DNA of 64,000 bases, from positions 62,001-126,000 of the forward strand of contig JAUIKM010000008.1 in the NCBI GenBank assembly GCA_030430495.1, written 5' to 3'. Numbering within the stretch: position 1 is the stretch's first letter; each line of letters begins with the position of its first letter. The notes under the pieces were generated by a model. That model was not told the origin of the DNA and searched no databases. It saw nothing but the letters and a program-made list of their open reading frames with translations. Positions 27,117 through 47,899 of this stretch are shown piece after piece. Position numbers and translations under genes: made by a program. The DNA comes from a bacterium. Its GTDB lineage: Bacteria > Bacteroidota > Ignavibacteria > Kapaibacteriales > UBA7675.

Positions 27117-29906
27117 ATGAAACAGGCTTACCCCCGACTGTCTGAAGCTGTTTGTTCAACGTCTTCCATTTTGTTTGCTGCGCTGCTGATTTTCAGCGCG
27201 TTGCCGACATTCGCTCAGGAGTTTGACCTTCCGCCGATTGAGCGAAGCCTGAACAATGGGATGACCGGCACCGACTTCTGGTTTGCCATTCCGCCCACAA
27301 AAGGATCATTTGGCGGCTCTGAAAATCTCTACGTCCTTGTTTCTTCCACTGTCGACACGGAAATCGAATTGACTGTCGGCGGCGGCTCGCCTGTTCAAAA
27401 AGAAGTCAAAGCCAACGAGACCGCGATCCTTTCTTCAGACAACAATCTGGCCAACTGGGCCTGGGAAGTGAAAAACAGCGAACAGGTTGAAGCGCTGGGT
27501 ATCCACATTGTGGCGAACGACCCGGTCGCGGTATCCGTGCTGACTGCCAAGCAGCGTGCCGCCGATGCATTTGCCGTTATCCCGACCCACCTTCTGGGCA
27601 CGTACTATATCAACTGCAGCTACTACGACAATCCGGGCTTTGGCTTCAACACAGATATCGGCGGCGGTTTCCTGATCGTGGCCACGCAGGACGGTACGTC
27701 CGTCAATTACACGCTGGATGGTATCGATATCTCCTCAGGGCAGACCGTGGGCGGCCAGTCCGTTGGCGATAGTCGCAGTATCTCGCTGCAGGCGGGAGAA
27801 GCCTACGCCGTTATCAGCGCCGGCGAGGCCGATGCGGGCCAGTTCGACCTTACCGGTTCAACGATTACTTCGACCAAACCGATTGCGGTTATTGGATTCC
27901 ACCAGAACTCCGCGCTGCCGGCTGCCGCGTTCTTTGCGTCGACCGGTGCGCTCTGTGAAATGCTGCCGCCCGTAACGGCCTGGGGGACCGAATTTGCGTC
28001 CTACCAGTTTAACAACACTGGACAGGGCTCTTACTATCGCATCATTGCGTCGCAGCCCAACACCAAGTACGAAGCGTTTTCCTACAATAACGGTCAGGTT
28101 GTCAGCACCAAGTCCGGCCTGCTCTCAGAAGTCGGCGACATGAAAGAGTTTGACGAAGCCGATCCGCGTGTGACGACGGGCGGTTTTCTGCAGGACATGG
28201 TATACTGGAAAGCCGACAAACCAGTCCTCGTAATGCAGTATTCTTTTGGAGAAAACTTTAACTCCGGCCAGCCTTACATGACACTGGTTCCGCCTTTGGA
28301 CCAAGGCCTGAAGAGTTCCTTCTTCAGCGTTCCGGCGGAAGTGTCCGGTTCAAAACTCAACATCTTTGCCGAAGGAGACCCCGACGACGAAGAAGCGCTG
28401 TTACTGCGTTCAGTCCGACTGAACGGCAAGCAGTTGGTTACCAGCAATCCTTCGTTTATCGTCAACCGCGTGCCGGGTACAAACTGGTACTTCACAGAAA
28501 TTGACGTGCAGCCGGGTCGCTACATACTTGACGGAAACGCCAAACACATTGCTTATCTCTATGGTCGTGTTGCACCGGGTGGCGGTGGATTCACTCTGGG
28601 TGGTTATGGTCTGCCGGTATCTTCGGCCGTCAATCACCTGGAGTCCAACGACACGGAAGCGCCGACCTTTACGACCGGCATTGATTGCGGCGTTGCGACC
28701 ATTCTTGCAAAAGACAATGAGTCGATCGCGGCCGTTGAGTTTATTGCCGACCGCAGTGTCAATGCCGAGTTTACGCGCATTACGCCGCGTTCCATCTTGA
28801 ATCTCTACGGCGTAACGCAATATTCCTTCAGCATCGGCCCGCAGCCCGGCGGCCACCTCTCGCCGGCAAAAGGCCTGTTTGCAATTCTGGATCGCGCAGG
28901 CAACATCACAATCGATTCTGTTGAAATTCCGGCTTCGACGGAAATCGTCGAAATGTCCCCTTCGCGCGTGAACTTTGGCCCTGTGCGCCTGGAAACGGAG
29001 CGCGAGCGCTCCTTTGACATTGAGAATCCGACTGCTGAAGCGGTTGAGATTCTGGAACTTGACCTCACCGGCCAAACGGTCTTTACCAAAATCGACTGGC
29101 CCGAAACGCCCTTTACAATCGAAGCATTCGGCAGCCAGGAACTGAAAGTCATGTACAAACCAACGCGCGAAGACGTCGACAACACGATGCCTGATCGCGA
29201 TTCCGTCATTGCGTCCACCGAGTGTTTCCAGTACAATTTGGGCCAAATGATCGGTCGCGGCGTTACCGCCAATACCGCATTTGAGAATCTGGCTGTATGG
29301 GATGCAGGTACAATTGAAGTCGGCAATGATCCGGTGTGTTATGAAGGCCAGGAATTTGGCCTGCGCAATTACGGTACGGAAATCGTGACGCTGACGCGCT
29401 TTACGCTTCAGGGAGCGGATTGGTCCGAAGTGCCTTTTGACATAGGCAGCCTCCAGATTCCCGACGGCGGCCTCGCGCTGCAACCCGGCGATGTCTTCCA
29501 CGTGTCTGGCATGTGTTTTGACCCGACGGAAGCAGGTGAGTTCGAGGTGCAGATTGTGTTTGAAACCAGTGCCGACGAATCGATTGCGATGACCTGGCGC
29601 GGAAAGGCGACGAAAACAGTCAGTGTAACGGATGAATCCATGCCGGGCTACCGCCTTGATTTTGCCCGTCCGAATCCGGCTGACGCCAAAGCGCTGATTC
29701 CATTTGCGCTCGGCGGCAATGAGCACGTTCGCATTGCACTCTATGACGCCCGCGGCAACCTCGTGGCCGTTGTGTTGGATGAAGATCGGCCCGAAGGACA
29801 ACACAGCATCGAGGTAGACACGGCCGTGCTTCCGGTTGGGCATTACTTCTACCGCCTGGAAGCCGGTTCGTTTAACGCGGGACTGCCGCTGCAGGTCGTC
29901 CGGTAA
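27117..29906 (+). CDS. Large secreted protein, IgGFc-binding-like N-terminus, T9SS-like C-terminal sorting domain (array paralog 1, subfamily A)
   Basis: MKQAYPRLSEAV signal peptide; GMTGTDFWFAIPPTKGSFGGSENLYVLVSS; TGSTITSTKPIAVIGFHQNSALP...LCEMLPPVTAWGTEF; tail RPNPADAKALIPFALGGNEHVRIALYDARGNLVAVVL...VLPVGHYFYRLEAG. Confidence 0.75.
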   Translation: MKQAYPRLSEAVCSTSSILFAALLIFSALPTFAQEFDLPPIERSLNNGMTGTDFWFAIPPTKGSFGGSENLYVLVSSTVDTEIELTVGGGSPVQKEVKANETAILSSDNNLANWAWEVKNSEQVEALGIHIVANDPVAVSVLTAKQRAADAFAVIPTHLLGTYYINCSYYDNPGFGFNTDIGGGFLIVATQDGTSVNYTLDGIDISSGQTVGGQSVGDSRSISLQAGEAYAVISAGEADAGQFDLTGSTITSTKPIAVIGFHQNSALPAAAFFASTGALCEMLPPVTAWGTEFASYQFNNTGQGSYYRIIASQPNTKYEAFSYNNGQVVSTKSGLLSEVGDMKEFDEADPRVTTGGFLQDMVYWKADKPVLVMQYSFGENFNSGQPYMTLVPPLDQGLKSSFFSVPAEVSGSKLNIFAEGDPDDEEALLLRSVRLNGKQLVTSNPSFIVNRVPGTNWYFTEIDVQPGRYILDGNAKHIAYLYGRVAPGGGGFTLGGYGLPVSSAVNHLESNDTEAPTFTTGIDCGVATILAKDNESIAAVEFIADRSVNAEFTRITPRSILNLYGVTQYSFSIGPQPGGHLSPAKGLFAILDRAGNITIDSVEIPASTEIVEMSPSRVNFGPVRLETERERSFDIENPTAEAVEILELDLTGQTVFTKIDWPETPFTIEAFGSQELKVMYKPTREDVDNTMPDRDSVIASTECFQYNLGQMIGRGVTANTAFENLAVWDAGTIEVGNDPVCYEGQEFGLRNYGTEIVTLTRFTLQGADWSEVPFDIGSLQIPDGGLALQPGDVFHVSGMCFDPTEAGEFEVQIVFETSADESIAMTWRGKATKTVSVTDESMPGYRLDFARPNPADAKALIPFALGGNEHVRIALYDARGNLVAVVLDEDRPEGQHSIEVDTAVLPVGHYFYRLEAGSFNAGLPLQVVR

Positions 29907-29930
29907 ATGCTTCGGTAACGAACGAAACAG

Positions 29931-29962
29931 AGGCGGTCGCTGCAAAGCGGTCGCCTTTTTTT
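29931..29962 (+). terminator. Intrinsic terminator
   Basis: AGGCGGTCGCTGCAAAGCGGTCGCCTTTTTTT. Confidence 0.7.
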
Positions 29963-30137: not shown

Positions 30138-32951
30138 ATGCGAATCCACTACTTTGTACTTGGGTTGTTGACGCTTGCAACGACTGCTACGGCGGGGGAT
30201 GAGACAATTCCCCCGGCGCAGATGTCGGCATATGTCAATAATCTCGTGCAGAGCGGAACCAGCGGAACCGAATTCTGGATCGCCATTCCCAGGCCGGGCA
30301 ACATCAATACCGGTCAGATACCGGCTCGCTATGAGATTCACGTTACCAGCGAACACCAGACCAGAGTCTCCGTTTACTACCCCAAAGTCCCCTCATTCGA
30401 CAGATCAAAAATCGTGGAACCCGGCATAGTGACGGTGTTCTCTTCAGGGAATGACCTTGAAGAAGAGTTCTGGATCAATCGCAGTGAAATAGCGAACAGC
30501 AACAAGTTGCGCAAGGGAGTCTGTCTCAGTGCGGAGCACCCGGTGACGGTTACTCTTTACTCGTTCATTGGTGCATCCGTTGAGAGTTGTCGCATCTTGC
30601 CGCAACATACGCTCGGACTTGAGTATCGCTATTTGTCGTACTACTCCTATCTGGATGGGACGGAAAGCCGTAATGGCGGTTGCCTGATTCTGGCAACCAG
30701 ACCCAACACCATGGTCGAGATTTCGCTGCCGCAGCGACCGAATTCGATTGTTAAAACTATGGACAATCGATATGCCGGAGAGCGGTATTCCGTGATGCTC
30801 GATTCCGGCGAGGTTTATACGCTGGCCACAGCCACGGTTGATTCAGTCCTGACCGCCGATCTGAGTGGCGCTCGAATAAAATCTGATAAACCCATTGCGG
30901 TAAGCGCATTTCACTTTGGGAGCAAGCTTCCGATTATTGCCGGCGATGATTCTCCGTCGGCATTGATTGAAATGCTGCCGCCAGTGAGCTCCTGGGGGAA
31001 ATCGCACGTCGCAATGATGACCCAGCTGCCCGCCGGCCCAGGTGTCGACAACCTCTACCGAATAGTCGCGGCCGAAGACAATACTGACTACTTCATGCTT
31101 AGAGTCGATTTGTTCGACGGGTCGATCCTCGACCGAAGTGAAGGTGTGCTCAGCAAAGCCGGCGAATGGAGTGAAATTGGCGACTTCGATCCGGAGAGTT
31201 CAGGCAACGTCAAACGAAGCATTACCATCTGGACTTCCAGCAAACCTACCCTGCTGATGCAGTATGGCGTATCCCATTCATCCGGTGGAATCAGCCCTTT
31301 TATGGCGCACGTTCCGCCGTTGGAGCAATACGTCACGGGCAAGACATCATTCTTTGTTCCGCCCGGAATTGGTCAGATTCACGTGTTTGCGGTCAATAGC
31401 TCAGGAGAAACGCCGGGCGATCTCAAGACTGTCATGGTTGACGGCAAAGAGCTCGGTCAACTGGATGCGCGCTTCTATTCCAATCGAGTGCCTGAAACTG
31501 ACATTCACTATATGAGCCTGGTTGCGAGGGCCGGACACGTGCAGACGATCAACAGTCAGACGCCCTATGCCGTTATGCTGTTTGGTTCTTTTGATAATGG
31601 CCACTACGGCGCCAATCTGGTTGGCTCTGCCTACAAAGTTGATCAGCCTGACTCCGTACCGCCTGTTCTTTCGATGCGCCGGCAGTGCGCTGAATTTCAC
31701 TTTACAGCGACGGAACTTACCGTCAACGATGTGGAGGGCCCCAAGCGTCAGATCGATCAGGGCGTTTCCGACATTCAACTGATTCCCGAGTTGTCGAACA
31801 ACTTTGAGTTTATACTGAACGATCCCTCCGTGCTGGAAGCTTATCGCGGCGAGCACAAGGTTGACTTCAGCCTGAAACCGATCGACATTGAGCGCAACGG
31901 CAAAGCGGTGTTTCTTGTGCGGGATCGCGCAGGCAACGTCGTTGTTGATTCCATTAATTACGTCTACCAGCCCGACAATCAGATTTTACGTGCCGACGTG
32001 CACCGCCATGATTTCGGCGTGGTACGCACCAATGACAGGCCCGAGTTTGTGTTGGAAATCACCAACGTATCGACTGCGCCGCTCCCGATCAACAGCTTCT
32101 CGTTTACGCGCGGAAGCAATCTCTTCTATATTGCTCCTGCTGATAATGTGGCCTTTGAATTGCCTGTCGGTGAGTCCAAACAAATACACGTCGTTTACAA
32201 ACCGGTGCGCGAAAACGCCGGCGGGGGACAAGCCGACGTCGACACGCTGGTGATCAATTCGCACTGCCGGGCATTTGTTGCGACGGCCCTGAGTGGTCGC
32301 GCCGGCCTGCCGCGCGCTTCAGCCATAAGGGATCTCGACTTTGGCGATGTTGATGTGGGCGACAAGAGCTGTCATGAAAAATTTATCGGTATCTACAACG
32401 AAGGTTACCTACCGTTGAATATCGATCTGGAAGATCTTGCCGAGCAATTTCGCGCCGACGACAAACCGGCTTTTTACCTGAGAGATGACAAGTTCAGTGG
32501 CGACGTTGTGAGTTCCGTGCCGCCCGGCGACACTCTGAAGTTGCGAGTTTTCTGTTTTGCACCCACCAGCCCCGAACTGTACAGCCGGGTGTACACACTC
32601 CAGCACGACGGCGCAGGCGACAAGGAGTTTACGCTGCAAGGCCGCGGCGTTCGGCCCACAAGCGCCGGCGAAGACGACTTGATTAACAGTTCAGAACTAC
32701 ACATTCTCGATCCCGTGCCGCATCCGATCAGCGGCAATGCTTCCCTGCGGATCGTAGTGCCGCATCCGGGAACGGTTGAACTGGAATTGTGCGACATGCT
32801 TGGGCGGGTTTGTACTGCTTTGCGCAGCGACAATGTTGGGCCTGGATTGCAAACCTTCAATCTGCAAACGAGGGATCTGCCGGCCGGCACATATTTCCTC
32901 GTTTGTAAAAATGGCCGTAGCGTACAGCGACGCGCAATTCGTCTCCGGTAA
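30138..32951 (+). CDS. Array paralog 2 (subfamily A): secreted IgGFc-binding-like / T9SS-like
   Basis: GTSGTEFWIAIPRPGNINTG; CRILPQHTLGLEYRYLSYYSYLDG; ALIEMLPPVSSWGKSHV; LDFGDVDVGDKSCHEKFIGIYNEG; C-terminal VELELCDMLGRVCTAL...LPAGTYFLVCKNG. Confidence 0.75.
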   Translation: MRIHYFVLGLLTLATTATAGDETIPPAQMSAYVNNLVQSGTSGTEFWIAIPRPGNINTGQIPARYEIHVTSEHQTRVSVYYPKVPSFDRSKIVEPGIVTVFSSGNDLEEEFWINRSEIANSNKLRKGVCLSAEHPVTVTLYSFIGASVESCRILPQHTLGLEYRYLSYYSYLDGTESRNGGCLILATRPNTMVEISLPQRPNSIVKTMDNRYAGERYSVMLDSGEVYTLATATVDSVLTADLSGARIKSDKPIAVSAFHFGSKLPIIAGDDSPSALIEMLPPVSSWGKSHVAMMTQLPAGPGVDNLYRIVAAEDNTDYFMLRVDLFDGSILDRSEGVLSKAGEWSEIGDFDPESSGNVKRSITIWTSSKPTLLMQYGVSHSSGGISPFMAHVPPLEQYVTGKTSFFVPPGIGQIHVFAVNSSGETPGDLKTVMVDGKELGQLDARFYSNRVPETDIHYMSLVARAGHVQTINSQTPYAVMLFGSFDNGHYGANLVGSAYKVDQPDSVPPVLSMRRQCAEFHFTATELTVNDVEGPKRQIDQGVSDIQLIPELSNNFEFILNDPSVLEAYRGEHKVDFSLKPIDIERNGKAVFLVRDRAGNVVVDSINYVYQPDNQILRADVHRHDFGVVRTNDRPEFVLEITNVSTAPLPINSFSFTRGSNLFYIAPADNVAFELPVGESKQIHVVYKPVRENAGGGQADVDTLVINSHCRAFVATALSGRAGLPRASAIRDLDFGDVDVGDKSCHEKFIGIYNEGYLPLNIDLEDLAEQFRADDKPAFYLRDDKFSGDVVSSVPPGDTLKLRVFCFAPTSPELYSRVYTLQHDGAGDKEFTLQGRGVRPTSAGEDDLINSSELHILDPVPHPISGNASLRIVVPHPGTVELELCDMLGRVCTALRSDNVGPGLQTFNLQTRDLPAGTYFLVCKNGRSVQRRAIRLR

Positions 32952-33134: not shown

Positions 33135-35825
33135 ATGATTTCAGCTTTCAGCAGTAAAGTCGTCGGTGCTCTGCTGCTCCTGGCGGTTGCACTGTTTGTC
33201 CTGCCGTTCCGGGCGACGGGTCAGGCGCACAAACTCGCCGGCGGCTACGAGTACTGGCTGGCGATTCCACCCAACGAAGAAGCTAACTTCGGCAGCGAGA
33301 TCGAACTGACCATGGTCATCTGTGCGCTTGAGAAGCAGGCCAATATTCACGTTGAGATTCCCTGGATCGGCGCAAGTTTTGAGCAGGTGATTCCCGCGGG
33401 ATCCGCAACGCGTATCAGTTCAATCGACGGCAAGCTGCCTTGGGATCTGGAAGTTCGCGAGACGGGCACGGCGCAGACAAAGGGGATTCATGTGCAGTCC
33501 GACGAGCCCGTCACCGTGCGGCTCTACTCGGCGCGATCATTTTCGGCCGACGCCTTTACAGCGATTCCGGTGCACATGTGGGGGCGGAGCTACCGGCACA
33601 TCGCGTACTACGAGCAGGCCGATCCGATCAAACGGCGCGGCTCCGGATTTGTCATTGTGGCGGCTCACGACAACACGGAGGTGCGCATCAATCTTGAAGC
33701 GCGCGGCGTCGGTCAAACGACCGACGGACACTCCCCCGGCATGCAGTACGACGTCGTGCTGCAGCGCGGCCAGACATACATGGTACACGGCGACGGACTC
33801 AGCGAAGGATTTGATCTTTCCGGCACGCAGATAACAGCTTCCAATCCCATCGGCCTGATTTCCTTTCACATGCGCTCCATTGTGCCGCTGGCCATGGGAG
33901 CCGGTGACCGCGATTTTTTGGTTGAGATGTTGCCGCCGCTTGAATACTGGGGGAGGCGTTTTGTCAGCCGCGAGTTGTTGCGTGTCGGATTCGGCGACTA
34001 TTTCCGCGTCGTGGCCGCGAAAGACAATACAACCGTCAAGCTGCGCACCTATGATTCGACGGGTAAAGAGTCATCCTCGCGCGAATTTACCATCACGGAC
34101 GCCGGCGATTTTGCCGAATTCGGCGAGCATGCGCCGGAAGCTTCGCCGCGTGCCGACGCCATCCGCGGCGTGTCACTCTGGGAAGCCGACAAACCGATTC
34201 AGGTCATGATGTATTCCTACTCCTCCGACTGGGACGGCGCACCGGGTTACAATCCTTTCATGGTTGCTCTGACGCCGTTTGAGCTCGCATCCACTGTGGA
34301 GGTCGTTGATATTCCGAGCGGCACGGGGCTTTCGGTTATCGACATTATCACTGAGGACAATCCAAATCTTCTCGAAGACCTGAGGCTGAACGGCCAGCCG
34401 ATTGCACAGATCGACCCGGATTTCATGAGGATCCCATATGGCGATGAAGGTCTGCGCTGTTCGCGCATTCATCTGGGGCCCGGTACAAAACGCATTTCCG
34501 GCGATGCGCTGTTTGTCGGTATGCTGCACACCTATGGCGGCAACAGCATTCACGGTATTCCGCTGGGCCGCACCGCATTTCCGCTGCGGGCGGCCGAAGC
34601 TCCCGACCTGCCGACTTTTGTGACTACAGCAGCGGATTGTTTCAGCGCAGAGATTGAAGTCTCCGGCGGCGGCCCTGTTCCGCTGGCCTTAATGCGCACC
34701 AACAGCCGAACATTGAGTAACGTCGCGATCAATCCACCGGACGCCCTGGTCATAGATCCCGTTGTCGGCGTGATGAAACGCAGCTTCAGGGTTGAAGTCA
34801 TCGACAAAAGTCTCGATGCGTTCGCCGAGTTTGAAGTCTTTGATCAGGCCGGTACGCGCGCAAAACACCAGTTCATCTATGCAGCTGCGCAACTGGACGT
34901 CACGCCGACGGAAGTCCTGCGCGAGAATCTGCAGACCGGCGACGAACTATTGATTTCTCTTGCGCTCAGCAATAACGCGTCCGACGTGCAGCGCATCGAC
35001 TATCTCTACCTGCTGCACGGCAACCGCGGCATGCGCATCATAGACAAACCCGCTCTGCCGCTCTCGCTCGGCGCCAGCCAGAATCTGCCGATCAAGGTCG
35101 AAGCGCTGGCCGGAGAGGTCGGAATTGTTTACGACACGCTGGTAGTGGGCGACACCTGCCGCGAACTCGTGCGCGTTCCGCTCGAATTGCAGGTGGAACG
35201 CGGCATTGAAGGCAAACCCGTCGTGCTCGCCTTTGACCACGACTTTCGCGACGTTTTCATCGATGACTCTGTTTGTGAGGAAGTCGAAGTCAAAAACATC
35301 GGTTCGGAGCTACTAACGGTCTATTGCATAACCGATGTGGACGACGACTCCTATATCTTTGCACAAAGCGGTTGTGAGACCTTTTTTCCGCAGGTCCTGA
35401 ACCCTCAGGAAAGCATGCAGCTCGACATCTGTTTCAGGCCGCGTACAACCGGCACTCACACGACGCAACTCACCGTGCAGTCGGATGCCGAAGGCGTCGA
35501 CAGCATCATATTCCTCCAGGGGCGTGGAATTGAAACAGCCACCGATGTCGTGGATACCGATTCCGACCTGACGGAACCGTTTGTACTGCGCGCTTATCCA
35601 AACCCCACTGATGATCTCTTGTTTGTCAGCGGGCCGGAAGTTGCCGGTTCGTCGGCTTATTCTTGTGTTGACCGCCTCGGACGATCGACAGCTGTCTCGC
35701 AGTTGGCCTCGGGCGCGGACGGCACCGCAGTTTTTGACGTTGCGGCGCTCCCGCCCGGCATGTATAATCTGGTTTTGACGCATGCCGGCGGACGCAGTTT
35801 TGTGACATTTTTCATCGTGCGTTGA
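33135..35825 (+). CDS. Array paralog 3 (subfamily A): secreted IgGFc-binding-like / T9SS-like
   Basis: GGYEYWLAIPPNEEANFGSEIELTMVICA; FLVEMLPPLEYWGRRFV; tail RAYPNPTDDLLFVSG...LPPGMYNLVLTHAGGRSFVTFFIVR (type A sorting-like). Confidence 0.75.
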   Translation: MISAFSSKVVGALLLLAVALFVLPFRATGQAHKLAGGYEYWLAIPPNEEANFGSEIELTMVICALEKQANIHVEIPWIGASFEQVIPAGSATRISSIDGKLPWDLEVRETGTAQTKGIHVQSDEPVTVRLYSARSFSADAFTAIPVHMWGRSYRHIAYYEQADPIKRRGSGFVIVAAHDNTEVRINLEARGVGQTTDGHSPGMQYDVVLQRGQTYMVHGDGLSEGFDLSGTQITASNPIGLISFHMRSIVPLAMGAGDRDFLVEMLPPLEYWGRRFVSRELLRVGFGDYFRVVAAKDNTTVKLRTYDSTGKESSSREFTITDAGDFAEFGEHAPEASPRADAIRGVSLWEADKPIQVMMYSYSSDWDGAPGYNPFMVALTPFELASTVEVVDIPSGTGLSVIDIITEDNPNLLEDLRLNGQPIAQIDPDFMRIPYGDEGLRCSRIHLGPGTKRISGDALFVGMLHTYGGNSIHGIPLGRTAFPLRAAEAPDLPTFVTTAADCFSAEIEVSGGGPVPLALMRTNSRTLSNVAINPPDALVIDPVVGVMKRSFRVEVIDKSLDAFAEFEVFDQAGTRAKHQFIYAAAQLDVTPTEVLRENLQTGDELLISLALSNNASDVQRIDYLYLLHGNRGMRIIDKPALPLSLGASQNLPIKVEALAGEVGIVYDTLVVGDTCRELVRVPLELQVERGIEGKPVVLAFDHDFRDVFIDDSVCEEVEVKNIGSELLTVYCITDVDDDSYIFAQSGCETFFPQVLNPQESMQLDICFRPRTTGTHTTQLTVQSDAEGVDSIIFLQGRGIETATDVVDTDSDLTEPFVLRAYPNPTDDLLFVSGPEVAGSSAYSCVDRLGRSTAVSQLASGADGTAVFDVAALPPGMYNLVLTHAGGRSFVTFFIVR

Positions 35826-36057
35826 CTTGTGATTTGCGAATAACGGCACGTAAATTGACGTTGTTTGTTCCGGATTACAATGGATGATTACGCCCCCGAC
35901 AATCATCCGGCACCTGCTGGTTTGGTCAGAGCCCCCCTGACATCGCCTGCACTAATAGTTCATGTGGTTTGTTCCGACGACGCTGCCCCGTTTGCGTCGG
36001 TCTGACCTGTTGTGCTTAGGCGATAGATTTAAGATCACTTTCAACAGGATTGTCCTC

Positions 36058-38460
36058 GTGCGTACCTGCTGTATCCTGCTTCTTTGCCTGTTGGCATCCT
36101 GCCCCGGTCTGATTGCCCAGAATCCCGCTTCAGTTTTTCCGCCGATGTTCGACAATGCGAACGCCGGAACGGACTTTACCTTCAGTGTTCCGCCCGCTTA
36201 TGCCCGGGGCGGCAGCGACAACCGCATTTCCATTTTTGTGTCTGCGCCGTGGTCGGCGGAAGTAACTGTCGAGATCAAAGCGCTGAACCTCGTGCGTTCG
36301 ATCAGCACGGTTGCCTGCGAAACTTCCGTTATTCATCTGTCTCCGGCGGAGGCAGAAGTTTTTGTCAAAAATCCCTCCGATGAAGCACCTGCAAAGGATG
36401 TATTTGCCGGCGCGGGCGTGCGCGTCCATTCCGATCTGCCGATCGTTGCTCACGTTGAACTCGAGTACGAATTCACCGGCGACGGAGCCATGTTGATTCC
36501 CGACGCCGCGCTGGGCACGGAGTATGTCGTGTCGAGTTATGCCGATGTCAGCGCGATGTACGATGAACTTGAGTTGCCCAGTGAAACCACCGTGACGGCG
36601 ATTGAAGACGGCACCACTGTCTGGTTCACATTGGGCGGCAATGCACTGACGGAAACGACCAACGGCATGAAAACGGGGGACACGCGCCAATACACGCTGA
36701 ATGCCGGTGACGTTCTCTCCATCGCCACTGCAACACTTGAAGGCGATGTGAGCGGCAGTTATGTGCGCGCCACCAAACCCGTCGCTGTCTACTCCGGCAA
36801 TCAATGCGCCAATGTGCCGACCATCATCCGCTGGTGCAACTACATCATGTGCAGCGAAACGCCCTTGCACGCCTGGGGCAAGACATATCACTTTCCGACG
36901 ATTCTCGGGCGCAAGGACAATGCCTACCTGCAAATCATGGCCGCCGCCGACGATACGGAAGTGCTGCGCGACGGCGTGCCTTTCACAAACATCGATGGCC
37001 CGGGCGGAGTGCAGGGCGTCGGTTTTCACAGTTCCGTTTCGCTGGACGACTCCCAACGGGGCGTCAATTTTTCCTCCGACAAAACAATCAACATCACCTG
37101 GTTAAATCCCGGCACGGAGCGCGACGGCGTCCAGACGGAACCCTTTGCCATACCGCTGATTCCGGTGGAGCAATACAGTCGCTTTGTCTGGCTGAACATG
37201 CCGCACAACGCTTCGGAGCGATTTCAGCGCAGTTCGCTCAGCGTCATTTACGCGTTGAGCGACAACGGCGTCGTGCCGCCGGAGCTGGAAATTCTGGTGC
37301 GCATCGGTGGAAACGTGGTTTGGAACAGGCTGTCCGACAGCTTTGGAGCGTCGCCGGGGAGCATTTTCCCCGGAGAAGTCAACGGCAAAACCTGGGCGGA
37401 AAAGCGCCTGATCGTTGAAAGCGCGGCTCAAATTTACGCCATTCGCAGCCTGGGCGATCCTTTTGCGGTCTACCTGACCGGCGCTTCCGGGGCGGAGTCC
37501 TACGGCATGCGCGCCGCTGCGCGATTTAAGGATCTGACTACGGACGACCAGCTACCGCCGATCAACATCTTTACGACGGACATTCCTTCGTTCCTGCAGG
37601 GCGAGTTCATGGACGTCAGTGCCCGGCCGATTCCGTCCGGTCTGGCGGCGGTCAACATCCAGCCGAATGAAAGCTACAATCTGCTGCTCAACGTCGCCGA
37701 GTTCACACCTGGCACGACGGACGCGGTTGAGTGGACGGCCGTGCCGCAGAATATCAATGCCGAGGGACGCCTCGTTGTCGTTCTGGTCGACCGCGCCGGC
37801 AACGCGCGCCGTGTGGAGATTCACTACACGCCCAAACATCCGGGGCTGGGCGCTGCGCCCGCCGTCGTCGAGTTTGGCGCAACGCAGCAGCAGTCGACGC
37901 GCACGCGTACAGCGACCATTCAGAACCTGAGCGAGAGCGAAACAATCCAGGTCCTGGACCTGCAAATCATCGGCGGCGAGGGAGAATTTGCACTGGAATC
38001 AGGCGTGCCGTCTATTCCCTTCACTTTGACGCCGCAAGCCGAGATCGAGCTGACATTCCGCTTCGAGCCGCAGGGTGCCGGACACAAACAGGCCCTGGTC
38101 TGGATAAGCACCAACATCGGCAATTTTGTGTGCATTATGCTGGACGGGCAGGCGCTGGATGTGGCGTCGGATGTGAGGCCGGAATTTACAGTGAGAAATG
38201 TTCTACACACCGTCGATGTCCTGGCCATCCCGTCGCCCGAGAGCGTCCGGCTGTCGTTTGAGCTCGAATCCAGCGCGCAGACGGACCTCGTTCTGTACAA
38301 CCTGCTCGGAATTGAGGTGATGCGCCGCAGGCTCGGTGTGCTGCGGGCCGGGCCCAGTCAGGTGCGGCTTCAGCTCGACGTCCTGCCGATCGGCTCGTAT
38401 TTTGGCCGAATTATTGCCGGCGACGCCGTCGGTCAGTTTCGACTGACCGCGCTGCGCTGA
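36058..38460 (+). CDS. Array paralog 4 (subfamily B): secreted IgGFc-binding-like / T9SS-like
   Basis: FDNANAGTDFTFSVPPAYARGGSDNRISIFVSAPW; SGNQCANVPTIIRWCNYIMCSETPLHAWGKTYHF; ORF open from 35962, GTG at 36058 gives a better signal peptide (VRTCCILLLCLLASCPGLIAQ). Confidence 0.7.
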   Translation: MRTCCILLLCLLASCPGLIAQNPASVFPPMFDNANAGTDFTFSVPPAYARGGSDNRISIFVSAPWSAEVTVEIKALNLVRSISTVACETSVIHLSPAEAEVFVKNPSDEAPAKDVFAGAGVRVHSDLPIVAHVELEYEFTGDGAMLIPDAALGTEYVVSSYADVSAMYDELELPSETTVTAIEDGTTVWFTLGGNALTETTNGMKTGDTRQYTLNAGDVLSIATATLEGDVSGSYVRATKPVAVYSGNQCANVPTIIRWCNYIMCSETPLHAWGKTYHFPTILGRKDNAYLQIMAAADDTEVLRDGVPFTNIDGPGGVQGVGFHSSVSLDDSQRGVNFSSDKTINITWLNPGTERDGVQTEPFAIPLIPVEQYSRFVWLNMPHNASERFQRSSLSVIYALSDNGVVPPELEILVRIGGNVVWNRLSDSFGASPGSIFPGEVNGKTWAEKRLIVESAAQIYAIRSLGDPFAVYLTGASGAESYGMRAAARFKDLTTDDQLPPINIFTTDIPSFLQGEFMDVSARPIPSGLAAVNIQPNESYNLLLNVAEFTPGTTDAVEWTAVPQNINAEGRLVVVLVDRAGNARRVEIHYTPKHPGLGAAPAVVEFGATQQQSTRTRTATIQNLSESETIQVLDLQIIGGEGEFALESGVPSIPFTLTPQAEIELTFRFEPQGAGHKQALVWISTNIGNFVCIMLDGQALDVASDVRPEFTVRNVLHTVDVLAIPSPESVRLSFELESSAQTDLVLYNLLGIEVMRRRLGVLRAGPSQVRLQLDVLPIGSYFGRIIAGDAVGQFRLTALR

Positions 38461-38732: not shown

Positions 38733-38736
38733 GCAT

Positions 38737-41463
38737 ATGAGAGCTGTTGTTGCGATGGTGCTGGTTGCGATGAGTGCGTGTGTTCCGGCTGTGGCGCAGG
38801 TTGACATGCCGTCCATGCTGGACAACGGCAATGCCGGCGTCGAGTTCATCTTCAGCATGCCTCCGTGTTACGAGCAGGGCGGCAGCAACAATGTGATTGT
38901 CATATTTGTCGCCTCGGTTTATGAAGCCGAAGTGACGGTCAGGGTGTCGGGGCGCGGAGTCTCCAAAACAAAACGGACGCTGCCCGGGAAGGTGACCCAC
39001 TTCACTTTGTCGCCTGCGGAGGCGCAGCCCTTTAACAAAGATGAAAGTCAGCCTGCTCCGATCCAAACGCTCTACCCGGGGGTGGCTGTGATCGTGCAAT
39101 CCGACAAACCGATTGTCGCATACTGCCTGACGCGGTTTCAGTTTACAACCGACGGCGCAATGCTCACGCCCAATAGCTCGCTGGGAACCGAGTACGTGGT
39201 GGGCAGCATGGCCGACATGAGCGCCATGTATCCGGGCTTGAATCTGCCGAGTGAAGTGACGATTTCAGGGGTTTCAGACAGTACCACGGTCTGGTTTACG
39301 CTGGGAGGTACAAGCGCCACCGTGGCCAACAACCTGATGGAGTCCGGCCAGACAAAACAATACGTGATTAATAAAGGCGATGTCCTGGCGATTTCAACCT
39401 CCAATGCGGGCGGCGATCTGAGCGGCAGTTATATTCGTTCCAGCAAACCCGTCGCCGTTCTGTCCGGCAACCAATGCGCCAATGTGCCGCTTGACAAGCG
39501 CTGGTGCGACTACGTCGTGTCCAACGAAGCTCCGATCCATTCCTGGGGCACGGCCTGTCACTTCCCGCAGCTGGCCGAACGCGATCAAAATGCCTGGGTG
39601 AAAATTTTTGCCGCCGAAAGCGGTGCTCAGGTCTACCGCAACGGCGAGTATCTGAGTACCCTGCGCGACGGCAAGGGTGGTCAGGCCGGCTTCGGTTATA
39701 TGGACCGACAGGCTCTGGAGGGTGCGCAGCAGCCGATTGTCTTTACGGCCTCCACGTCGATCTCGGTCAAGTTGTTTACGCCGGGGCAGGAACTGGACAA
39801 CAAAGTTGCCGACCCGAGCTCAATGCAGATTACTCCCGTGGCCCAATATTCCAGGTTTGTGCTTTTCTGCGCGCCGGGAGCGCCCCAGTTGCAGTTTGCC
39901 GAAAACTTTGTCAGCCTCGTGCATGCCGTCGACGCCAATGAAGAAGTGTCGGAGGATCTGGAAATCGGCGTGTTCCATGACGGCGAACTGGTGTGGAGCA
40001 AAATTCGCGATCTCTTCGGCGTTGCGGCCGGCGGTCTGTTTCCTTCTATCGGCGACGGCAAGATCTGGGCTGAAAAACGCCTGCAGCTGCCCGATCCTTC
40101 CGGCGTCTATGCCATCCGCAGTTCCGGCGAACCATTTGCGGCTTACTCCTATGGACGCCAGGATTACGACAGCTACGCCTTCCGCACCGGCGCGCGCATG
40201 ATCGACCTTTCGGTTGAGGACAGCCGTGCGCCGATGAATGTCTTGACGTTCGCCAGTTCCGTCCAACAGACAGGCGGGATCGTGGACCTGGGCGGCTCGG
40301 GTCTGGCCGCCGTGCGCCTTATTCCGGAATCGGCGTTTAACCTGAACTTTGACATTGTCGACTTTTTACCGGGAACACTGGACGAAATAGCCTGGACCGC
40401 AACGGTCATCGACCCGCGGGAGGCCGCCGGTGCGACCGTAGTGATGATCGACCGCGCCGGTAATTCAGCGACTTTTGACATAGACTTTTTAATTGAACCG
40501 CGCGGCGAGTTGCAGGTGACGCCGCCGCTGCTCAATTTTGGACAGATCATTGCGGCCGACGTGGTTGACAGCACGGTTAACATCGCCAATGTCGGCACTG
40601 AGGCTCAGCTCCGGATTGAGTCGATTCGACTGGAGTCCGGAAGCGGGGCTTTTGAGTTTGTCGACCTTCCGGCTCTGCCCTTAACCTTGCCGCCCGCCGG
40701 CGACGGCAACGAAAACTCACTTGCACTTAACGTTCGTTTTACCGGTCGCGAAGCCGGTGATTTCAATGACCGCATTGTAATTGCCACGGACCTGGAGGAT
40801 GAACTGCCTTATACAAGGCTGGTTGCAACAACCAACGTCACGACGCTCGAAATTGAGCCGCGTGTGTTTAAGCCGACCGTCATTGACTCCACAGATACTG
40901 CAACCTGTTTGTTTAACATCCGGAGCACGGTGGAAGCCGAGATATTGTCCGTGTCCCAGCCCGACGATCCGGCGTTTGTCATTGCGCGTTATACCGGTGC
41001 GCTGCAGTCGGTGCCCGGCACACTTCCGCCGCAAGCCGCTGGTGGAGTTGAGGTGAGGTTTACGCCCGTGGAAGTTAAACAGTACAGCGCAACTATGGAC
41101 GTGCGGTACCGCTTTGGTCGGCAGGAAGTGCGCACGGCAAAGGTTAACTTGTCCGGCGAAGGAAAGGGTAGAGTCAGCAACGTGGATGAGAGGCCGGGCT
41201 TTTTCAACCTGGATGCATCTACGCAGTCGAGTCCATCCGGGCCGCGTACCTCCGTGCGATTCACGCTGGAAGTGCCGATTGCGGTATCGATGAAAGTCTA
41301 CGATCTGCGCGGGAGTACAGCTGTTAACATTCCGTCGCGCAGGTTTGAGGTTGGCGACAACGTTGTGGAAATCGACATGGCGCGCATGGCCGCGGGCGCG
41401 TACTTTCTGCATCTGGAAGCGCCCAACGCTTCGGCCGTGTTTCCGCTGGTGCTGCTGCGTTGA
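38737..41463 (+). CDS. Array paralog 5 (subfamily B): secreted IgGFc-binding-like / T9SS-like
   Basis: MRAVVAMVLVAMSACVPAVAQVDMPSMLDNGNAGVEFIFSMPPCYEQGGSNNVIVIFVASVYEAEV; SGNQCANVPLDKRWCDYVVSNEAPIHSWG. ORF open from 38566. Confidence 0.75.
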   Translation: MRAVVAMVLVAMSACVPAVAQVDMPSMLDNGNAGVEFIFSMPPCYEQGGSNNVIVIFVASVYEAEVTVRVSGRGVSKTKRTLPGKVTHFTLSPAEAQPFNKDESQPAPIQTLYPGVAVIVQSDKPIVAYCLTRFQFTTDGAMLTPNSSLGTEYVVGSMADMSAMYPGLNLPSEVTISGVSDSTTVWFTLGGTSATVANNLMESGQTKQYVINKGDVLAISTSNAGGDLSGSYIRSSKPVAVLSGNQCANVPLDKRWCDYVVSNEAPIHSWGTACHFPQLAERDQNAWVKIFAAESGAQVYRNGEYLSTLRDGKGGQAGFGYMDRQALEGAQQPIVFTASTSISVKLFTPGQELDNKVADPSSMQITPVAQYSRFVLFCAPGAPQLQFAENFVSLVHAVDANEEVSEDLEIGVFHDGELVWSKIRDLFGVAAGGLFPSIGDGKIWAEKRLQLPDPSGVYAIRSSGEPFAAYSYGRQDYDSYAFRTGARMIDLSVEDSRAPMNVLTFASSVQQTGGIVDLGGSGLAAVRLIPESAFNLNFDIVDFLPGTLDEIAWTATVIDPREAAGATVVMIDRAGNSATFDIDFLIEPRGELQVTPPLLNFGQIIAADVVDSTVNIANVGTEAQLRIESIRLESGSGAFEFVDLPALPLTLPPAGDGNENSLALNVRFTGREAGDFNDRIVIATDLEDELPYTRLVATTNVTTLEIEPRVFKPTVIDSTDTATCLFNIRSTVEAEILSVSQPDDPAFVIARYTGALQSVPGTLPPQAAGGVEVRFTPVEVKQYSATMDVRYRFGRQEVRTAKVNLSGEGKGRVSNVDERPGFFNLDASTQSSPSGPRTSVRFTLEVPIAVSMKVYDLRGSTAVNIPSRRFEVGDNVVEIDMARMAAGAYFLHLEAPNASAVFPLVLLR

Positions 41464-41931: not shown

Positions 41932-44655
41932 ATGAAAAGAGTAATGTTTGTGTTTATGTTTGCGGTTCTGGCGGCGTCCCCACTGACGGCGCAGAACAAC
42001 ATGCCGTCCCTGTTGGACAACGCCAACGCCGGCACCGAGTTTTACTTCAGCATGCCCCCCGCCTACGAGCAGGGCGGCAACGACAACCAGATTGTTATCT
42101 ACGTATCTTCGGCCTACGAGGCCAACGTCAAGCTGTCGATTCCCGGCCGCGGCGTGCTGAAAGAGAAAGTCACGACGCCCGGCGACGTCATCTTCTTTTC
42201 ATTGTCGCCGGGGGAAGCGCAGCCGTTTAACAAGGTTCCAAGCCAGACGGCGCCGGCGCAGGAAATCTACGAAGACGTTGCGGTTCACCTTACATCCAAC
42301 AAGCCGATCATCGCCTACTGTGTGACGCGTTTCAGCTTTACCTCGGACGGCGCCATTCTCATGCCGAACGCCGCACTTGGCACAGAATACGTCATCGGCA
42401 GTATGGCTGATATGACCGAGCTGTTTCCGAGCCTGAATCTGCCGAGCGAAGTCACCGTGACGGCGATTGCCAACAACACGACGGTCTGGTTTACAGTCGG
42501 CGGAACAAACAAAACCAAAACGACCAACGGCATGGGCGCCGGCGATACGCGCGAGTTTGAACTCAACAAAGGCGATGTGCTGGCCATTTCCACCCTCAAT
42601 CAGGGCGGCGACCTGAGCGGCAGTTACGTCCGTTCCACCAAGCCGGTCTGCGTCATGTCCGGCAACCAGTGCGCCAACGTGCCGATCGACAACCGCTGGT
42701 GCGATTACATCGTGTCCAATGAACCGCCGCTGCACACCTGGAGCAAGGTCTATCACTTTCCGCAGCTCTCGCCGCGCGAACAGAATTCCTGGATGAAAAT
42801 TGTCGCCGCGGAGGACAACACGACCGTCCTGCGCAACGGCGCGGCTTACGGCACGCTCGAATTCGGCAAGGGCGGGCGCGCCACCCGCGGTTACCTGGAA
42901 GGCCAGGCCATGGACGGCGAGCAGCAGCCCATCGTATTCTCGGCCGATAAACCCATTTCGGTCAAGTTTTTCAATCCCGGCCAGGAACTCGACGGCCTGA
43001 CCTCCGATCCTTTTTCCATTCAGATAACGCCCGTCGACCAGTACGTCAACTTTGTCTGGTTCTGCACGCCGGGCGTCGCCCAGTTGAGTTTCTCCAAAAA
43101 CTGGCTGAGCATCGTGCACGCGGCCGACGCCAACGACGAAGTGTCGGAAGACCTCGAAATCGGGTGGTTTGTGGACGGCGAACTCAAATGGCGGAAAGTG
43201 CGCGATGCCTTCGGCAGTGCGCCGGGCGGCTTTTTTGCGCCCATCGGCGACGGCAAAAGCTGGGCGGAGAAACGCATTGAACTGCCCGATCCCGCCGGCG
43301 TGTACGCGCTGCGCAGTTTTGGCGATCCGTTTGCGGCCTATTCCTACGGCGCGCAGGACTACGACACTTACGGCTTCCGCACGGGCGCGCGCATGAACGA
43401 TCAGACGGTTTCCGACACGGAGCCGCCGCAGAACGTTTTCGTCGCCGATCGGGGGCCGCAGCAGTCCGGAAGTATCCAGGACCAGGGCGCGGGCATTGCC
43501 GCCGTGCGTCCCGTACCCGAAGAGGTGGTCAACATGCAGGTTGAAGTCGCCGAGTTTTTGCCGGGAACCAAAGAAAGCGTCAACTGGACGGCCTCGGTCG
43601 TCGATCCGGGTCAGCCCGCCGCCGCGGTCATCGCGGTGATCGACCGTCGCGGCAACGTCAGCACCTTTGACGTCGAGTACTCCGTCGAAGATCGCGCGCC
43701 GGTGGAAATCACTCCGGTCGCGCTGGAATTCGGCGAGACCATCGCGGCCGACGTCGTCGAGCGCGTCGTCACGATCACGAACACACAACCGGCCGCACAA
43801 TTGACCATCGTATCGATCCGCCTGGCGGCCGCTCTGCCGCAGTTTGAAATTGCCAATCTGCCGGCTCTGCCGTTTGTGTTGGCTCCGGCCGGCGAAGAGG
43901 GCAGCTCGCTCGACCTGACGGTGCGTTTCACGGGCGACGGCGTGGGTGAGTTCCAGGAACAGCTGGAAGTCACGGCGGCGGGCGAACCCGTAAATGCGAC
44001 CTGCGACCTGAACGCCACGACGGCGGCCAGCGAGCTGTCGCTTGCCGCGACGACCGACTTTGGCGCGGTGACGGTCGGCCTGCCTTCGAAAAGAACAGTC
44101 TCGTTCGACATCGACAGCCCGGTCGCAGCGGAAATTCTGTCCGTCTCGGCGCCGGACCATGCCGCATTCAGGATCGAGGGTTTTTCCGGCGCGCTGCAGT
44201 CCGTTCCGGGAACTATCGGCGCAGGCGCTGCCGCGGGCATCACGTTTGAATTTACTCCGACGACGCTGGAGGCTTACAGCGCGACGGTTGACGTTGAGTA
44301 CACATTCGGGCAGCAGGAGCCGCGCATTACTACGCTGACCCTGCAGGGCGAGGGCCGCGGCACGACCAGCAGCGTGGATGAGAATCCCGAGATTCTTAGC
44401 CCGCTCATTACGGCCGATCCGAATCCGGCTTCGCTGCAGACGAGCCTGAGTTTTGAATTGCTGCAGCCGCGAACGGTGGCCGTCACGCTCTACGACCTGC
44501 GCGGCATTGCGGTGCTGACCGTGCAGCCGCGTTTGTACGACGCCGGCGTTAACGCGCTGGAGCTCGATCTGGCGGGGCTTTCCGTGGGCACGTACTACTG
44601 TCGCCTGGATGCGCAGGATGCCGTGGCGACGCTGCCGATTCTCGTGCGGCGTTAA
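41932..44655 (+). CDS. Array paralog 6 (subfamily B): secreted IgGFc-binding-like / T9SS-like
   Basis: MKRVMFVFMFAVLAASPLTAQNNMPSLLDNANAGTEFYFSMPPAYEQGGNDNQIVIYVSSAYEANV; SGNQCANVPIDNRWCDYIVSNEPPLHTWS; tail VAVTLYDLRGIAVLTVQPRLYDAGVNALELDLAGLSVGTYYCRLDAQ. Confidence 0.8.
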   Translation: MKRVMFVFMFAVLAASPLTAQNNMPSLLDNANAGTEFYFSMPPAYEQGGNDNQIVIYVSSAYEANVKLSIPGRGVLKEKVTTPGDVIFFSLSPGEAQPFNKVPSQTAPAQEIYEDVAVHLTSNKPIIAYCVTRFSFTSDGAILMPNAALGTEYVIGSMADMTELFPSLNLPSEVTVTAIANNTTVWFTVGGTNKTKTTNGMGAGDTREFELNKGDVLAISTLNQGGDLSGSYVRSTKPVCVMSGNQCANVPIDNRWCDYIVSNEPPLHTWSKVYHFPQLSPREQNSWMKIVAAEDNTTVLRNGAAYGTLEFGKGGRATRGYLEGQAMDGEQQPIVFSADKPISVKFFNPGQELDGLTSDPFSIQITPVDQYVNFVWFCTPGVAQLSFSKNWLSIVHAADANDEVSEDLEIGWFVDGELKWRKVRDAFGSAPGGFFAPIGDGKSWAEKRIELPDPAGVYALRSFGDPFAAYSYGAQDYDTYGFRTGARMNDQTVSDTEPPQNVFVADRGPQQSGSIQDQGAGIAAVRPVPEEVVNMQVEVAEFLPGTKESVNWTASVVDPGQPAAAVIAVIDRRGNVSTFDVEYSVEDRAPVEITPVALEFGETIAADVVERVVTITNTQPAAQLTIVSIRLAAALPQFEIANLPALPFVLAPAGEEGSSLDLTVRFTGDGVGEFQEQLEVTAAGEPVNATCDLNATTAASELSLAATTDFGAVTVGLPSKRTVSFDIDSPVAAEILSVSAPDHAAFRIEGFSGALQSVPGTIGAGAAAGITFEFTPTTLEAYSATVDVEYTFGQQEPRITTLTLQGEGRGTTSSVDENPEILSPLITADPNPASLQTSLSFELLQPRTVAVTLYDLRGIAVLTVQPRLYDAGVNALELDLAGLSVGTYYCRLDAQDAVATLPILVRR

Positions 44656-44686: not shown

Positions 44687-44731
44687 ACAATCGGCGTGCC
44701 GATTTTATCGGTGCGCCGATTGTACTTTTTT
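44687..44731 (+). terminator. Intrinsic terminator of paralog 6
   Basis: ACAATCGGCGTGCCGATTTTATCGGTGCGCCGATTGTACTTTTTT. Confidence 0.85.
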
Positions 44732-44795: not shown

Positions 44796-45178
44796 ACGGG
44801 GTTTGCCACCGAAGTGTTGACAGACTGGATTTGAGCTCGAAGACTTCGCGTTCGGAGACTTCAAACCCGGTGACAAACAAAAGTGGCTTTGTCTGTCGGT
44901 AAAGAATGCGGCGGTCCCGGAGTCGCGCCTGAATTGAAAATTTTCACGTCTGCTGCAAGTGGATGCAATTTTGTGGTAGTTACACGTCTGAACCTGGTAC
45001 ACGCTACCCCCGGCAATTCAGTGCCTTTCTTCGGCATGCAGTTCACTGCCGAAGCGCCCCACATCGCATGCCGTCCGAATGCGACCACAACAGCCCTTTA
45101 AAGTCAGTTCCACGAGACAATGCCTCGGGCATTGAAAAAGTGATTTCGCGAGAATCAGAATCGAATCCGGAGACGGTC

Positions 45179-47899
45179 ATGAAAATGTTGTTAACACTTG
45201 TACTCTCAATGTTGTGTCTGTCGACGCCGCTGGCCGCGCAGAATACGATGCCGTCCCTGCTGGATAACGCCAACGCCGGGACGGAATTTGTCTTCAGCAT
45301 GCCGCCCTGTTACGAACAGGGGGGCAACGACAACCATATTGTCATTTATGTATCCTCGCCCTATGCAACCGAGGTCAAAGTCGAGATCCCCGGCCGCGGC
45401 GTTGTCAAAACACAGCGCACGGTACCTAACGACGTGATTTACTTCAGCCTGTCGCCGGCGGAGGCCCAGCCTTTTAACAAAAGCCCCAACCAGGTTGCGC
45501 CCGCGCAGGATCTGTACACCGGCGCAGCCGTGATCGTGACCGCGAAAGAGCCGATCGTGGCCTACGCCGTGACGCGTTTTCAGTTTACGAGCGACGCCAT
45601 CATGTTGACGCCGACTTCCGCCCTGGGCACCGAATACGTCGTCGGTTCCATGGCCGACATGAGCTCCATGTACCCCGGTTTTAACCTTCCGAGTGAAGTG
45701 ACCATCGCCGCGACGGCCGAGGATACCAGGGTCTTTTTTACGCTGGGCGGCAATGCTCTCACGACTGCCAACAACGCGATGAAGGCGGGGGATACCCGCT
45801 CTTACACTCTGAACAAAGGCGACGTCATCGCAATCTCGAGCGTCACCGCCGAAGGCGATGTGAGCGGTAGTTACGTACGCTCAACAAAGCCCGTCTCCGT
45901 CGTTTCCGGCAACCAGTGCGCCAACGTGCCGACCTCAATTCGCTGGTGCGACTATATCGCCTCGGCCGAAACGCCGATCTCGGCCTGGAGCACGAGCTAC
46001 CACTACCCGCAGTTAATGGAACGCAGTCAGAATTCGTGGATGAAAATTTTCGCAGCCGACGATCAGACAAACGTCAGGCGCAACGGCGAACCCTTCGGCC
46101 TGATCGAATCCGGCAGGGGCGGCGTCTCCGGCGTCGGATTCCTTGAAGGTCAGGCGCTGGACGGCGAACAACAGCCGATTGTGTTTACAGCGGACAAGCC
46201 GATCTCGATCAAGGTGTTTAACCCCGGGCAGGAGCTCGACAACCGCACCTCGGATCCCTACGCTATTCAACTCGTGCCGGTCGATCAATATGTTAACTAC
46301 GTCTGGTTTAACGCTCCCGGCGTAGCGCAGCTGAGTTTTGCGCAAAACTGGGTCAGCCTTATCTATGTGGTGGACGACAACGGCACGCTGCCGGACGATC
46401 TGGAATTGGGCATGGTAGACGGCGGTGTTATCGAATGGGTCAGTATCGCCGATGTGTACGGCAGCGCGCCCGGTTCGATTTTTCCCTCGATCGGCGACGG
46501 CAAGACCTGGGCCGAAAAACGCCTCGCCCTGCCGGATCCCTCCGGTGTGTATACCATCCGCAGCGCGAGTGAACCATTTACCGTGTATTCTTACGGCGCG
46601 GAGGACTACAATACCTACGCCTTCCGCACCGGCGCGCGCATGATCGATCTGGAGAGCGTCGACGCCCTGCCGCCGCAGAACGAATGGCTGGCCTCGGGCG
46701 GCCTGCTCCGCAGCGGTCGCATCATCGACGTGGCGGACCAGGGAGACCCTTCCGGCCTGGCGGCCATCCGCATCATCCCGGAAACGCGCGAAAACTTCAA
46801 GCTCGAAATCGACGACTTTGTGCCGGGAACAATCGACCGTGTCCAGTGGACGGCTTCGGTACAGAACGCCTCGCAAAATGGCCGCGTGGTCCTGGCCATG
46901 ATCGACCGCCGCGGCAATACCGAGCTGCTGGAGTTAACCTATGCGCCGGAAGAGGAGACCAATCTGGACGTGACGCGTGAAATTGACTTCGGCAAGACGG
47001 TCGAGGGCGATGTAAAAGAAGCGAAGATAACAATTGTTAACACAAGCGACAGCGATCCCGTGGTGATCGAGTCGATCGAGTTAACAGATGGCGCGCTCGG
47101 TTTTGAGCTTGTCGGTCGGCCGACTCTGCCTTACAGTCTGGCGGCCGGCGGCACGTTGGAGCTGACGGCCCGTTGGACAGCCGGCGAAACCGGCAACTTC
47201 TCGGATATTCTGCTGATCGGTACGGCCGGCAAACCCGTTGCCGGTTACACGGTCCTGAAAGCCTACACGGCTCCGACGGGGCTGACGTTTGTCGACCGCG
47301 ACTTTTTCCGCATTGAGATTGGCGAGACCATTTACGGCACCGGCTGGATTAACAACGAAGGTGAAGTGGATGCGGACATCATTGCAATCGACGATCCGAC
47401 CGATGATGCCTTCAGCATTATTCGTTACACCGGTGCTATTAACAGCGTTCCCGGCACGCTTGATGCCGGTGCGACGGGCGGCGTCGACTTTGAATTCGCC
47501 CCCACGGAAGCGCGCGAATATACCGCAACCGTGGCGGTGCGTTACCGGTTCGGGCAGCAGCCGGAGCAGCTCGGCACAATCAAGCTGATCGGCGAAGGCT
47601 TCGGCGAACCAAGCGACGTAGCTGAAACACCGAAGATCTTCGGCGCGTCCATCAGCGCGCAGCCCAACCCGACTCCGCGCTTCACAACTTTGAACTTCGA
47701 TCTGGCGACGCCGCAGCGCGTAGCGGTCCGTGTATTCGACCTGCGCGGTAATGTTGTGTTTAACATGCCGTCGCAGGCATGTGCTTCCGGTGTTAACACG
47801 CTGGAGCTGGATCTTGCGGCATTGGCGAGCGGCACGTATTACTGTCGGTTGGAGGCGGGCGGCGCGCGGACGACCCTGGCGATTCTCGTGCGACGTTAA
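45179..47899 (+). CDS. Array paralog 7 (subfamily B): secreted IgGFc-binding-like / T9SS-like
   Basis: MKMLLTLVLSMLCLSTPLAAQNTMPSLLDNANAGTEFVFSMPPCYEQGGNDNHIVIYVSSPYATEV; SGNQCANVPTSIRWCDYIASAETPISAWS; tail VAVRVFDLRGNVVFNMPSQACASGVNTLELDLAALASGTYYCRLEAG. ORF open from 44963. Confidence 0.8.
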   Translation: MKMLLTLVLSMLCLSTPLAAQNTMPSLLDNANAGTEFVFSMPPCYEQGGNDNHIVIYVSSPYATEVKVEIPGRGVVKTQRTVPNDVIYFSLSPAEAQPFNKSPNQVAPAQDLYTGAAVIVTAKEPIVAYAVTRFQFTSDAIMLTPTSALGTEYVVGSMADMSSMYPGFNLPSEVTIAATAEDTRVFFTLGGNALTTANNAMKAGDTRSYTLNKGDVIAISSVTAEGDVSGSYVRSTKPVSVVSGNQCANVPTSIRWCDYIASAETPISAWSTSYHYPQLMERSQNSWMKIFAADDQTNVRRNGEPFGLIESGRGGVSGVGFLEGQALDGEQQPIVFTADKPISIKVFNPGQELDNRTSDPYAIQLVPVDQYVNYVWFNAPGVAQLSFAQNWVSLIYVVDDNGTLPDDLELGMVDGGVIEWVSIADVYGSAPGSIFPSIGDGKTWAEKRLALPDPSGVYTIRSASEPFTVYSYGAEDYNTYAFRTGARMIDLESVDALPPQNEWLASGGLLRSGRIIDVADQGDPSGLAAIRIIPETRENFKLEIDDFVPGTIDRVQWTASVQNASQNGRVVLAMIDRRGNTELLELTYAPEEETNLDVTREIDFGKTVEGDVKEAKITIVNTSDSDPVVIESIELTDGALGFELVGRPTLPYSLAAGGTLELTARWTAGETGNFSDILLIGTAGKPVAGYTVLKAYTAPTGLTFVDRDFFRIEIGETIYGTGWINNEGEVDADIIAIDDPTDDAFSIIRYTGAINSVPGTLDAGATGGVDFEFAPTEAREYTATVAVRYRFGQQPEQLGTIKLIGEGFGEPSDVAETPKIFGASISAQPNPTPRFTTLNFDLATPQRVAVRVFDLRGNVVFNMPSQACASGVNTLELDLAALASGTYYCRLEAGGARTTLAILVRR

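Follow-up and report, generated by a model that had tools for sequence, protein, structure and literature searches.

A tandem array of seven genes for likely T9SS-routed surface proteins with IgGFc-binding-like heads in a Kapaibacteriales bacterium

Seven consecutive paralogous open reading frames on the + strand (27117-47899) of a Kapaibacteriales contig each encode a signal peptide, an IgGFc-binding-like (IgGFc) head, an Ig-like stalk and a T9SS type A-like tail, and the array is rather likely to specify seven T9SS-routed, statically anchored cell-surface adhesins. The window, meaning the whole 64,000-nucleotide stretch of DNA analysed here, belongs to a host genome of 5.6 Mb in 80 contigs. 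The array is not unique to this genome. A syntenic array of six such genes is present in another genus of the same family (G002), and runs of IgGFc genes occur across the order and in other Bacteroidota, and the tandem organisation described in an earlier note on this DNA is confirmed.

Results

Layout of the array

The array divides into two classes of head. Class A comprises gene 1 (27117..29906), gene 2 (30138..32951) and gene 3 (33135..35825), and class B comprises the divergent gene 4 (35962..38460), whose stalk is about 110 residues shorter, together with gene 5 (38737..41463), gene 6 (41932..44655) and gene 7 (45179..47899), all on the + strand. Pairwise head identity between members is 18-64%, so the paralogy is real, and class A heads share only about 18-23% identity with class B heads. 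With about 830-940 residues each, the proteins do not deserve the word "giant" of the earlier note, which overstated their size. The starts given above were adjusted by reference to signal peptides and ribosome-binding sites; that of gene 4 is uncertain, that of gene 5 has a perfect AGGAGG, and a simple scan found a hydrophobic core with a plausible start in all seven signal peptides.

The array is probably not a single transcript, as gaps of 105-447 bases separate its long open reading frames and a strong terminator-like hairpin follows gene 1 and another gene 6. These hairpins, which are pattern matches only, lie on the + strand at 29929..29958 (13 pairs, then a T-run) and 44687..44723 (17 pairs, then a T-run). 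Directly 3' of the array, at 48140-49174, a transposase is split into two adjacent same-strand open reading frames, with the DDE domain in the second piece, and is probably broken; the G002 array, by contrast, is directly followed by a KdsB-like gene. Elsewhere in the window, a single open reading frame at 61094-63043 (649 residues) unites phospholipid-methyltransferase-like, PAP2 and prolipoprotein diacylglyceryl transferase (LGT) domains, an unusual combination, and another at 1872-5180 joins a Na+/H+ exchanger domain to a DUF389 membrane domain.

Head family, predicted structure and stalk

The kinship of the heads to the IgGFc-binding family, recognised in the earlier note, was upheld by profile search: all seven exceed the PF17517 gathering threshold (25.6 bits) at least five-fold, scoring 147.5, 134.8, 148.4, 131.5, 149.5, 163.6 and 161.8 bits for genes 1 to 7, respectively. 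The match spans nearly the full model in six heads and most of it in gene 4. The family name IgGFc_binding derives from a mammalian protein; here the domain is carried on bacterial T9SS cargo, and any Fc binding would be putative. Such heads are apparently undescribed as T9SS cargo in the open-licence literature searched, which yielded nothing relevant on IgGFc/PF17517 heads with T9SS, gliding or adhesins.

As modelled by AlphaFold2 from 35 sequences (pLDDT 89, pTM 0.91), the head of gene 6 (41995..43434, + strand) looks like four tandem beta-sandwich repeats of about 110 residues. The Pfam model covers only head residues 119-452, starting about one repeat into the predicted head, near the end of repeat 1. 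Profile comparison with hhalign related repeat 1 to repeat 2 (94%, E 2e-8) and repeat 2 to repeat 3 (92%, E 7e-8), and more weakly repeat 1 to repeat 3 (39%), with reversed controls below 0.4%; repeat 4 was not detected in this way and is visible only in the predicted strand order. A full-length model of gene 7 from the seven-row alignment (pLDDT 70, pTM 0.47) was used for domain order only.

A Foldseek search of the PDB returned no whole-head match and nothing under E 0.001. One head repeat resembles the ASRT/ASRAH domain of Thermotoga maritima TM1070 (1nc7; probability 0.96-0.99, TM-score about 0.58 by target, Foldseek E only about 0.05), a member of a beta-sandwich superfamily of proposed sugar binders (PMC2739507). 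None of the 35 heads has a Pfam sequence match to that superfamily; membership is not supported by sequence, and the structural resemblance is a lead only. The only whole-head structural match is to FirrV-1-C4 (BFVD Q6XLX4) of Feldmannia irregularis virus a, a phaeovirus of a brown alga (E 6.5e-12, TM-score 0.50 over 488 columns). This viral protein has no stated function and is 14% identical to the head, and the modelled match hints at a fold common to the head and a large eukaryotic virus.

The stalk had been described as choice-of-anchor-D-like. Weak matches to that model (NF012200, cut-off 45 bits) do occur in all seven proteins, but only gene 7 passes (45.6 bits) while the other six reach 26-43 bits. 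The stalk also has weak matches to ASH and HYDIN, and its PDB profile matches are to Hydin and CFAP proteins; Ig/ASH-like is the better description of it. A sequence search of the PDB left the head unmatched, its matches being Hydin/CFAP for the stalk and one T9SS tail.

Tails and secretion machinery

Published models recognise the tails unevenly. TIGR04183 (cut-off 23 bits) is passed by genes 6 (23.5 bits) and 7 (28.8 bits), and genes 1, 2, 3 and 5 fall below it (22.9, 21.1, 19.5 and 16.4 bits); PF18962 is exceeded in gene 7 only, and the tail of gene 4 has no match among library models. A local profile was therefore made from 20 T9SS tails that lie in other parts of this genome; it scores the seven array tails at 22.8, 29.1, 28.3, 21.7, 24.6, 35.8 and 46.6 bits in gene order, against at most 7.4 bits for shuffled tails. 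The type A tail claimed in the earlier note thus stands in all seven proteins by the local profile, but five of the seven remain under the published cut-offs. No match to the type B model TIGR04131 was found in the array proteins.

The genome encodes the SprA translocon (934.6 bits, cut-off 200, with neighbours) and the PorU sortase (872.5 bits, cut-off 420), and carries at least 150 type A tails (150 of 303 candidates scored); PorP/SprF is absent. The array proteins have in common with known type A cargo a signal peptide, a tail of the kind used in their own genome, and SprA with PorU. They differ in the five tails below published cut-offs and in forming a tandem set of paralogous cargo with one head family. 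Among the 22 IgGFc copies of this genome, the C-terminus is a type A-like tail in 20 and outer-membrane-barrel-like in 2, which points to a consistent surface destination of the head.

The array in the family and order

All 61 Kapaibacteriales genomes searched, our own included, contain the IgGFc domain, with 3-25 copies each. Runs of three were found on four contigs elsewhere in the order (G008 C11, G011 C56, G011 C10 and G013 C75), and runs of two in many others. No relatives emerged when genome contigs were scanned with the class B trio, and the full seven-row alignment contains no conserved stretch usable for contig scanning.

The gene order in G002 is RelA, counterparts of 19985-20962 and of the methyltransferase-like 21067-22500, a probable outer-membrane protein, a PD40-OmpA protein, the six IgGFc genes, the KdsB-like cytidylyltransferase and a TonB receptor. 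In the window, the probable outer-membrane protein (22624..23472, + strand) is 55% identical to its G002 counterpart at the same position; it has no Pfam match, and its barrel is suggested by the sequence. The PD40 beta-propeller/OmpA protein directly upstream of the array (24019..26664, + strand; PD40 81.6 bits, OmpA 59.7 bits) has a PorE-like architecture, yet its score against NF052230 (PorE) is 142.6 bits, below the cut-off of 600. A T9SS type A protein of 1001 residues at 56900-59905 consists of two very similar halves, and its G002 counterpart likewise stands after the TonB receptor.

The adjacency of a PD40-OmpA gene to the array, pointed out in the earlier note, is conserved within the family, but enrichment beside IgGFc genes within the genome is marginal at best: an OmpA/PorE-like gene lies within 3 kb of 3 of 13 IgGFc clusters against 0.76 expected (P 0.04), and the P value becomes 0.15 at 2.5 kb. 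With these two values, no association of IgGFc loci with OmpA/PorE-like genes is claimed for this genome.

In a tree of heads, gene 2 of the window pairs with G002 copy 3 and gene 3 with copy 4 (support 100 for each), as one-to-one orthologs at matching array positions, and gene 1 groups with two G002 copies. Genes 4-7 group together (support 100), next to a dispersed copy from their own genome. By these groupings, class A is the old and stable part of the array, and class B has expanded in the present lineage.

Constraint on the head

Among genes 5-7, identity is 53-71% by repeat in the head, 37-44% in the next domain, 36-47% in the Ig-like domains and 32-51% in the tail. Head dN/dS is about 0.2 with a head dS of 1.2-1.3; with Nei-Gojobori dS values of 1.1-1.8, the ratio is approximate. 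Orthologs between genera behave alike; those of gene 2, for instance, share 38% identity in the head, 26% in the stalk and 30% in the tail. The head is thus the most constrained part and under purifying selection, which favours a conserved role in binding or assembly over an antigen-like repertoire.

Heads outside the order, type B tails and barrel fusions

In an even draw across the phylum, 35 of 148 genomes (some of the same order) carry the IgGFc domain, with tandem runs of five in G072 and of three in G150, G132 and G163. A PorP/SprF gene adjoins an IgGFc gene in four genomes of other Bacteroidota families outside the order (G091, G136, G173 and G166); in G166, two PorP/SprF genes flank an OmpA/PorE-like gene, with a pair of IgGFc genes alongside. 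No PorP/SprF neighbour was found at the inspected out-of-order loci of G072, G150, G132, G163, G102, G179 and G081. Three out-of-order IgGFc proteins match the type B model TIGR04131 (cut-off 35) at 60-80 bits, and a fourth is sub-threshold at 30.7 bits. The runs of five and three at L164, L165 (G072 C3) and L166 (G150), from another Bacteroidota family, have type B-like tails and adjoin an EF-Ts-like gene and genes for small secreted proteins.

PorP/SprF exceeds its cut-off in none of 19 Kapaibacteriales genomes, compared with all five comparison genomes of other Bacteroidota. The same head thus comes with a type A tail in genomes that lack PorP/SprF and with a type B tail in those that have it. 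The likeness to SprB/SprF-type gliding and adhesin systems, in which PorP/SprF is the shuttle for type B cargo, concerns the head on type B-like cargo beside PorP/SprF in the four other genomes; the window proteins differ in having no type B tail, and their genome has no PorP/SprF.

A third form fuses the IgGFc head to an apparent outer-membrane barrel, which Pfam recognises in 1 of 13 family members. The relatives of this form that were retrieved are mostly Kapaibacterium, Kapabacteria or Ignavibacteria assemblies. It is present in most Kapaibacteriales genomes examined; at L041:8886-14645, for example, two tandem genes combine an IgGFc head with a barrel-like C-terminus.

Discussion

A surface role as adhesins, suggested in the earlier note, is the best-supported reading of the array, given the tails, the presence of SprA and PorU, and the contexts of the head. 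The proteins would be exported by Sec via their signal peptides and would pass through the SprA translocon, presumably with the type A shuttle PorV. PorU would then cleave the tail, leading to attachment to LPS or to release, and the Ig-like stalk would hold the head out at the surface. The head of about four tandem beta-sandwich repeats may bind a glycan or protein on a substrate, on matrix or on neighbouring cells; that it is the binding part we infer from architecture and context, not from homology to a known binder. Published work assigns static anchoring or release to type A tails and known or predicted adhesins to type B substrates (PMC12618676, PMC9143113), and the two tail forms of the head fit these roles. 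In addition, the head on a type B-like tail beside PorP/SprF in four genomes is the arrangement of SprB-type adhesins.

The main rival to the adhesin reading is a structural coat, in which the seven proteins would be building blocks of a surface layer or matrix assembled head to head, and several copies would be retained to serve dosage and distinct layers, not distinct external ligands. The head as the most conserved segment, its predicted multi-repeat beta-sandwich form, the many copies per genome across the order and the tandem same-strand organisation would all suit such a coat. We nevertheless consider it improbable, since class A and class B heads that are about 18-23% identical are unlike the subunits of a uniform lattice, and copy number varies from 3 to 25. 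Less probable again is that the proteins are released as soluble factors or act as secreted enzymes of hydrolysis or processing, with a catalytic or substrate-docking head. Type A cargo does include enzymes, among them the amylase AmyB, and cargo with type A tails can be set free (PMC12618676), so release into the medium is possible and calls for caution in the adhesin reading. However, neither Pfam nor NCBIfam finds an enzyme domain in any of the seven proteins, and the invariant or near-invariant head residues (mostly G, P, Y, W, D and T) look structural, with no catalytic-looking set.

The earlier note had spoken of a diversified repertoire. Tandem paralogs, a class B expansion specific to this lineage and a copy number of seven against six between relatives are what would be expected of a set for antigen variation or partner recognition that changes by recombination. 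Against this stand the slowest evolution in the head, where identity exceeds that of the stalk, the positional orthologs of genes 2 and 3 in another genus, and a tandem-repeat scan that found only three short arrays in the window. The idea of fast-diversifying heads is therefore not supported: variable antigens were rejected on the conservation of the head, and we regard a recombining repertoire as very unlikely. Most improbable of all is a putative binding of immunoglobulin Fc for evasion of host immunity, to which only the family name and Pfam membership point. Among named genomes, the closest are assemblies of uncultivated Kapaibacterium, Kapabacteria or Ignavibacteria, several of which come from groundwater by name and one from goat stomach, and no paper on bacterial IgGFc heads was found in the open-licence literature; IgG binding by the array heads is unlikely. 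The mucin binding proposed in the earlier note likewise finds no support here.

Beyond the adhesin reading of this array, a wider and more tentative proposal, which we hold somewhat less likely to be right than wrong, is that the IgGFc head represents a general, hitherto overlooked type of binding module on the surfaces of Bacteroidota. It would be a four-repeat beta-sandwich with no solved counterpart, displayed on three anchors (a type A tail, a type B tail with PorP/SprF, or an outer-membrane barrel fusion), and in Kapaibacteriales would make up a system for adhesion or coat formation that spans the order in many copies. The head occurs in many copies in all genomes searched from this uncultivated order and is linked to T9SS in several other Bacteroidota families. 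Related arrays lie in near-complete genomes of few contigs (G072, G150, G132 and G163), which may represent cultivated strains and would make genetic testing feasible. A function for the head would also reveal what a domain related to one in a mammalian mucus protein does in bacteria.
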